From Fluviirhizobium alvei (GTDB lineage Bacteria; Pseudomonadota; Alphaproteobacteria; Rhizobiales; Rhizobiaceae), in assembly GCF_030551875.1 (NCBI RefSeq), contig NZ_JAUOZU010000008.1:62001-126000 (forward strand): DNA of 64,000 nucleotides, read 5' to 3'. The position numbers and the translations under genes are program-made. This document shows, one piece after another, positions 17,237 to 18,509 of this stretch (its first letter is position 1; every line of letters begins with the position of its first letter). The notes beneath the pieces were generated by a model. The model was not told the DNA's origin and ran no database searches. It saw only the letters and a program-made list of their open reading frames with translations.

Positions 17237-17539
17237 CCAGTGCCTGTGACAGAGAGCTGATCGCAGAACCAATCCGCGAACTGCCGGATCAGGCCGGAAG
17301 GCCGGTCCGGCAGTTACATCGGGTAAGCCCGTGCTCAAGCGTTACGCCCTCGGGCCGCGACCGTGGCCCTTCAGCGATTTTCGCATCAAACACTTGGCCG
17401 CCTGTTTGTGAGCCGACCGGTGTCGGACCTTGCTGGAGAAGGCAAAATAGTGGTCGCAGTAAAGCGGGATACGGTTTGTCATACCCCGGCATCTCACATC
17501 GAAATCGGCGATCCGTTAAGTTGACAATGCCCTGCTACT
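17237..17539. other. Gene-free stretch with a hairpin and a repeat end
   Basis: No gene is supported in these 303 bp. A strong hairpin downstream of prpE pairs AACTGCCGGA (17279-17288) with TCCGGCAGTT (17306-17315), with further self-complementarity inside the loop but no T-run, so it is at best a terminator-like element. The right part contains the left inverted repeat of the methyltransferase cassette (17490-17530). The rest gives no recognisable coding signal. Confidence 0.6.
17490..17530 (+). repeat. Left 41-bp inverted repeat flanking the methyltransferase gene
   Basis: The 41 bp start CATCTCACATCGAAATC and end TTGACAATGC. The reverse complement of 18395-18435 matches it at 35 of 41 positions, with the outer 17 bp identical. 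Its inner end is 9 bp past the methyltransferase stop codon. Confidence 0.8.
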
Positions 17540-18307
17540 CTATGATTTGACGACGTAGCCGCCGGGCGCATTTGCCCATGGGAAGCGCTTGATTTGCGCT
17601 GAAATACCGCTCCTCTTTGCGAATTCGTCCCATGCACGGGTTTCGCCTGGCCACTTGCTCGTCCCATACTCGTCAAGCACAAGTACCCCGCCGGGAACCA
17701 GCCGCTCCCAACAATGCTCCAAGATGGCTGTGGTCGGATCATAAATATCGACATCGATGTTGATGAGGCAAAATCTCGCTTCAGGATTGACATTTAACCA
17801 ATCCGGCAGCGTCTGCGTAACATCGCCGACAATAATGGCTCCGCGATTGGCGGGGATTACCGAATCCTGATTGTGGAGATCCAGCAGGAGCCGGAATTCA
17901 TCAAGAAAGCTAGCCGAGTTCAGTCCGCCCGCTTTCTTTTGAACGGCTTCATCCTCGGCACCATCCTCTGCCGCGAGTTCCGGAAATCCGGCAAAGGTGT
18001 CGAAACCGAACACTTTCTTATGAGTGGCGGTTGGAGTGAGAACTTCCAAGAATTTATGCCAGCTGAAATATGATTTTCCAAAATATACGCCGAAGTCCAG
18101 ATAGTGACCGGGCAAATCGATTGTCAGCTTAAAGAGTTCGTAATGCGCCAGCTGGCGTATGAAACTGCGGCGACTGGCATAAACGGTGAACAGATCAAGA
18201 TAATGCCGGATGTCGTGAGGATGTTTCTGGATAATCTCGTTGAGACGGTCAAAATAGCGTTCCTCACCGCCGGACGGATAGAAGAATGTTCCGTTTGTCG
18301 TGTTCAT
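17540..18307 (-). CDS. TylF/macrocin O-methyltransferase-like SAM-dependent methyltransferase
   Basis: The product is 255 aa from the ATG at 18307, preceded by AGGAGA (complement of 18313-18318) at good spacing. The SAM-binding region is YLDFGVYFGKSYFSW near residue 90, and the metal or acidic motif region NIDVDIYDPTTAIL and VLDEYG follow, as in the TylF family of sugar, macrolide or peptide O-methyltransferases. The substrate is unknown. The gene stands alone between housekeeping genes and is bounded by inverted repeats, so recent acquisition is plausible. Such genes often sit in polysaccharide clusters, but none is nearby. Confidence 0.75.
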   Translation of the reverse strand: MNTTNGTFFYPSGGEERYFDRLNEIIQKHPHDIRHYLDLFTVYASRRSFIRQLAHYELFKLTIDLPGHYLDFGVYFGKSYFSWHKFLEVLTPTATHKKVFGFDTFAGFPELAAEDGAEDEAVQKKAGGLNSASFLDEFRLLLDLHNQDSVIPANRGAIIVGDVTQTLPDWLNVNPEARFCLINIDVDIYDPTTAILEHCWERLVPGGVLVLDEYGTSKWPGETRAWDEFAKRSGISAQIKRFPWANAPGGYVVKS

Positions 18308-18394
18308 CATGCTCTCCTGACATCGAATCACTGTGCCAATGACTATTGCGACCGTAACCTGTCGAGGAACTTACCACAGCCAAAACGTGAATTT

Positions 18395-18435
18395 GCATTG
18401 ACAACCTACCCGATCGTGGATTTCGATGTGAGATG
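18395..18435 (-). repeat. Right 41-bp inverted repeat flanking the methyltransferase gene
   Basis: Reads GCATTGACAACC inward and ends GATTTCGATGTGAGATG on the outside; it is the mirror of 17490-17530 with six mismatches. It lies 88 bp upstream of the methyltransferase start, so it could also contain or carry the promoter. Confidence 0.8.
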
Positions 18436-18451
18436 ACGCGGCATCTTGTTC

Positions 18452-18487
18452 CAAATAAAAAGGCCTGGAGCTTTCGTTCCAGGCCTT
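18452..18487 (-). terminator. Rho-independent terminator of the TrcR gene
   Basis: AAGGCCTGGA (18460-18469) pairs perfectly with TCCAGGCCTT (18478-18487) around an 8-nt loop. On the minus strand the stem is followed by TTTTTATTTGG. It lies 22 bp after the stop of the leftward trcR gene. Confidence 0.88.
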
Positions 18488-18509
18488 CGTCGTAGAGCTG
18501 TTCTTTGGC

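Follow-up and report, generated by a model that had tools for sequence, protein, structure and literature searches.

Why does a single methyltransferase gene lie between two long inverted repeats at the prpE-trcR junction of Fluviirhizobium alvei, and are these repeats the ends of a mobile element? The original prediction, made from the window (the whole stretch of 64,000 nucleotides considered here), took them for the termini of an undescribed mini-transposable cassette that had captured the gene as cargo. Our analysis leads to a different answer. We consider it very likely that an acquired TylF-type methyltransferase gene sits at prpE-trcR between two decayed, inverted copies of IS6-family elements, whose IRL ends face the gene.

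We confirmed the inverted repeat at 17490-17530 / 18395-18435 and found, as predicted, that the outer 17 bp of both arms are identical. The repeat is longer than the 41 bp first described, extending over 50 bp (17481-17530 / 18395-18444) with 82% complementarity. Within the 3-kb region, the top 50-bp inverted match reached 41/50, versus 28-32/50 in 25 dinucleotide-preserving shuffles of the same region, none of which exceeded 32/50.

The gene between the arms (17540-18310, minus strand) is intact and encodes a TylF-type (Macrocin-O-methyltransferase-like) SAM-dependent methyltransferase of 256 amino acids from the ATG at 18310, or of 263 from an upstream GTG. Its product belongs to Pfam TylF (E 2.9e-13, 50.1 bits vs a gathering cut-off of 23), and its G+C content is 51% vs mostly 56-61% in the surrounding intervals; the original prediction was right on both the enzyme type and the AT-richness of the gene. 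Compared with the nearest homologue, dN is 0.15 and dS is saturated, a pattern consistent with an intact gene under purifying selection, although the estimate spans all of the divergence between the two homologues and is not confined to the period after insertion. The enzyme is predicted to be, probably, a sugar- or surface-polysaccharide-modifying one.

The gap between prpE and trcR measures 1273 bp in the window vs 83-111 bp in five relatives of the family, two of them from the same genus; almost every relative searched has a conserved trcR. The junction comparison proposed with the original prediction thus revealed an insert that five relatives lack, and not a gene with its repeats common to all relatives at this locus; the gene itself is rare, being present in 6/395 family genomes at E<=1e-60. 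On the left, the interval from the prpE stop to the IS relic described below (17237-17346) has no IS6 match and holds a strong G+C-rich hairpin at about 17280-17315 (the fold of 17260-17330 gives -37 kcal/mol), which may be the prpE terminator. On the right, the insertion is bounded by the trcR terminator placed by the terminator scan at 18459-18488 (minus strand), a native sequence with comparable hairpin-forming counterparts in the empty-site relatives. Based on sequence comparison, we regard the insertion as confirmed to be lineage-specific and linked with mobile DNA. In genome G005, the prpE-trcR junction (L026 1-1500) holds other genes, ectoine-synthase-like and LysR-like; the junction therefore seems tolerant of accessory genes.

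Each arm of the repeat matches ~807-bp rhizobial IS6-family elements at the end where the transposase gene starts, over the terminal inverted repeat and the 5' leader. The left arm (17481-17531, minus strand, tip GGCATTG at 17531) corresponds to the IRL and 5' leader of a left IS6 copy, and the right arm (18394-18444, plus strand, tip at 18394/18395) to those of a second copy from the IS6 family, which is truncated at the start codon of its transposase and has lost the remainder. When 151 genomes were searched at the DNA level, the left arm, running outwards to about 17460, turned up in four other genomes of the family. At most of these matches an ORF starts there, with a product that begins like M T x R D P L (Y/C) R R H R F; in L018, the contig of G089 breaks off before this could be seen. 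Two of the ORFs were tested, and both fall into Pfam DDE_Tnp_IS240, an IS6-type transposase. Against rhizobial plasmids, the left arm gave matches of 76-80%, 3/6 of which (in Neorhizobium, Mesorhizobium and Aminobacter records) are annotated as IS6 family transposase at the matching place. The right arm alone matched the IS6 leader of Neorhizobium galegae pNgVX at 78% over 50 bp, with a weak E of 0.5.

We delimited five intact IS6 elements of 807-811 bp, both termini of which read GGCAT(C/T)GT(C/A)AACTTAA and whose two ends diverge past about 17 bp. Over 50 bp, the arms scored 16-30 against the IRL of these elements vs -5 to 10 against the IRR; IRL and IRR scored 5-11 against each other, with little in common beyond the tips. 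Since IRL and IRR are alike only near the tips, the 50-bp match between the arms is that of two IRL ends from two copies, not of the two ends of one element. The assignment of both arms to IRL ends of IS6-family elements appears strong for the left arm and weaker for the right one alone, whose identification depends mainly on its likeness to the left. The IS6 elements of the N. galegae pNgVX, Mesorhizobium sp. L-2-11 and Aminobacter sp. SS-2016 plasmids have the IRL and 5' leader in common with both arms and transposase pieces in common with the left relic, and the termini of intact relatives read GGCAT(C/T)GT. The window copies differ from them in being relics, without intact transposase, IRR or target duplication: no IRR ends or 8-bp target duplications are left at either copy, the outer ends being deleted, and no transposase remnant adjoins the right arm.

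As to polarity, an intact element has its tip at the very outside, followed inwards by leader and transposase. Both tips in the window adjoin the methyltransferase gene, and the leaders and IS bodies point away from it, towards prpE and trcR. With the tips facing the gene and the leaders outside, the 17 bp formerly regarded as outer are in fact IS-internal leader; CATCTCACATCGAAATC is the arm side that would abut target duplications if the ends faced outwards around a cargo. Because both IRL ends face inward, the two IS copies are inverted relative to each other. Read in this way, the methyltransferase gene is placed outside both IS copies and is not boxed by outward-facing element ends.

Beyond the left leader lies an IS6-family transposase relic (17347-17482, minus strand). 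It begins at the start codon 17480-17482 with the N-terminus MTNRIPLY and, after a large internal deletion, continues with RSAHKQAAKCLMRKSLKGHGRGPR up to a stop; the minus strand past the leader reads MTNRIPLYCDHYFAFSSKVRHRSAHKQAAKCLMRKSLKGHGRGPRA-stop, in the correct frame and direction as a continuation of the left arm. Its DNA matches the intact copy L015 at 17347-17403 and 17451-17531, and in blastp the two ends of the remnant aligned with residues 1-8 and 113-134 of the N. galegae IS6 transposase, with E values of 0.002 and 6e-9, with 1/200 shuffled remnants giving a match below 0.01. Judged by these matches, the left relic is an IS6 copy that has lost a large internal stretch. On the right, the copy breaks off at its start codon (18442-18444), just before the trcR terminator. 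The segment comprising the methyltransferase gene and the repeats thus holds no intact transposase ORF, as had been noticed from the start, but the degraded IS6 remnant at 17347-17482 had been missed.

In the whole genome, the 17-bp end occurs without mismatches at the two known sites and at 11 more sites with 3 mismatches; no other copy was found within 2 mismatches, and none of the repeat ends in eight congeners. Nor did we find any relative of the repeats and methyltransferase cassette as a unit; the search for further ends, suggested by the original prediction, instead led to intact IS6 elements with their tips outermost. No close relative of this IS6 subgroup was found elsewhere in the genome, where the IS6 transposase matches are only distant (27-39% identity), or in the eight congeners, so that the inverted pair looks like an old import.

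Homologues of the methyltransferase, 58-80% identical, are found in 12 genomes of scattered Hyphomicrobiales, including Microvirga. They sit at other loci, several in polysaccharide-type clusters, and several of the homologous loci have conserved neighbours in common. In Ciceribacter, the neighbours are a nucleotidyltransferase, an NDP-sugar epimerase/dehydratase, a C-methyltransferase, FkbM and RMNT_CmcI methyltransferases and a glycosyltransferase, a set that seems to resemble a surface-polysaccharide cluster. Comparable flanking inverted repeats were absent from the six homologous loci inspected. Within the genus, three genomes carry the methyltransferase at three sites (L082 5925-6671, L083 5640-6396 and window 17540-18310). 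In G007 it lies between kbl and a FAD-oxidoreductase-like gene, and in G006 it adjoins dnaG, on the other side of the FAD-oxidoreductase-like gene; no IS6 ends were found at either locus. The kbl-dnaG region of the window genome has other small ORFs in the interval and no methyltransferase copy, and a move of the gene from this region of the congeners would be neither proved nor excluded by such an arrangement.

How do other readings fare against these data? A non-autonomous transposable cassette (MITE-like or a mobile insertion cassette), ending in 41-bp inverted repeats and carrying the methyltransferase as cargo, would account for the long inverted repeats at both gene borders, the lineage-specific insertion and the low G+C of the gene; MITEs and mobile insertion cassettes likewise show a gene between inverted repeats without a transposase. 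However, such cassettes have their termini at the outer boundaries and the cargo inside, whereas in the window the ends point the wrong way, the left arm running outwards into transposase coding remnants. In addition, the unit is single-copy in the genome, with empty sites but no further copies found, and the homologous methyltransferases elsewhere lack such ends. We consider this reading very unlikely indeed. What stands of the original prediction is a lineage-specific insertion tied to mobile-element ends; what falls is the idea that the arms are the outward-facing ends of a mini-element. Its alternative, that the repeats act as a pair of regulatory sites (operator or promoter) controlling the methyltransferase, could draw on the position of one arm about 85 bp upstream of the start codon, but the second arm is on the downstream side of the gene, both arms match IS6 leaders, no promoter-like site was found in the region and the arms are not conserved at the homologous genes. 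We give it hardly any credence. A search for a hybrid promoter reading outwards from the right IS tip was also negative.

A doubtful but possible alternative is that the gene came in otherwise, for instance by homologous recombination of flanking DNA, and is flanked by two IS6 insertions that occurred independently and had no part in its acquisition. Anatomically, this is a sub-case of our best explanation, from which it differs in mechanism. It would agree with the divergence of the arms, which differ by 18%, not much less than from the IS6 copies of other genera, and with the two congeners (G006 and G007) that hold the gene at two sites without IS6 ends. On the other hand, given that no close IS6 relative was detected elsewhere in the genome or in the eight congeners, two chance insertions at one short site would be less economical. 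It is very unlikely, in our opinion, that the methyltransferase is a repeatedly relocating orphan gene of the genus, moved by an undescribed route and accompanied by IS6 relics only incidentally.

The locus is most likely a now-inactive remnant of IS6-associated acquisition. The methyltransferase, related to surface-polysaccharide-cluster genes, would have been acquired horizontally, and IS6 activity would have placed the segment at prpE-trcR, either by intramolecular replicative transposition, which leaves the segment inverted between two IS copies of opposite orientation, or through one IS insertion after another around the gene. Deletions would then have taken away the greater part of both ISs and spared the gene, and the repeats and gene would now be immobile by their own means. 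With neither outer IS ends nor target duplications left, the event is not assignable to one route, and proof of a transfer step mediated by IS6 is out of reach; the same picture results when ISs insert separately on the two sides of an already resident gene.

Like an IS6-family pseudo-compound transposon, the window has a passenger gene between two IS6-family copies. However, functional pseudo-compound transposons always carry direct IS copies, and inverted pairs stall at the cointegrate and are not functional transposons (IS6 review, PMC7986276), whereas the window copies are inverted and decayed. As functional units need direct copies, the pair in the window is not itself transposable and fits either an inversion product or two insertions. 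The product of an IS6 intramolecular inversion also has inverted copies, the original IS and a new one, which both turn the same IS end inward; its diagnostic feature is an inverted target duplication, but the outer IS ends of the window are deleted.

The window locus is a new instance of a well-known kind; it has the look of a gene acquired in the ordinary IS-associated way, not of a mobile element of a new kind. Its general importance is limited. It offers a rhizobial case of a probable polysaccharide-modifying gene that was acquired in association with IS6 and kept after IS decay, and a lesson in polarity: when a gene lies between long inverted repeats, these are not necessarily the ends of an element with the gene as its cargo. 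In another genome, G065 (L016 / L020), we observed two IS6-family copies with the same transposase sequence, inverted and about 6-7 kb apart, with an integrase-like ORF adjoining one of them, which is possibly a recent inverted IS6 pair.
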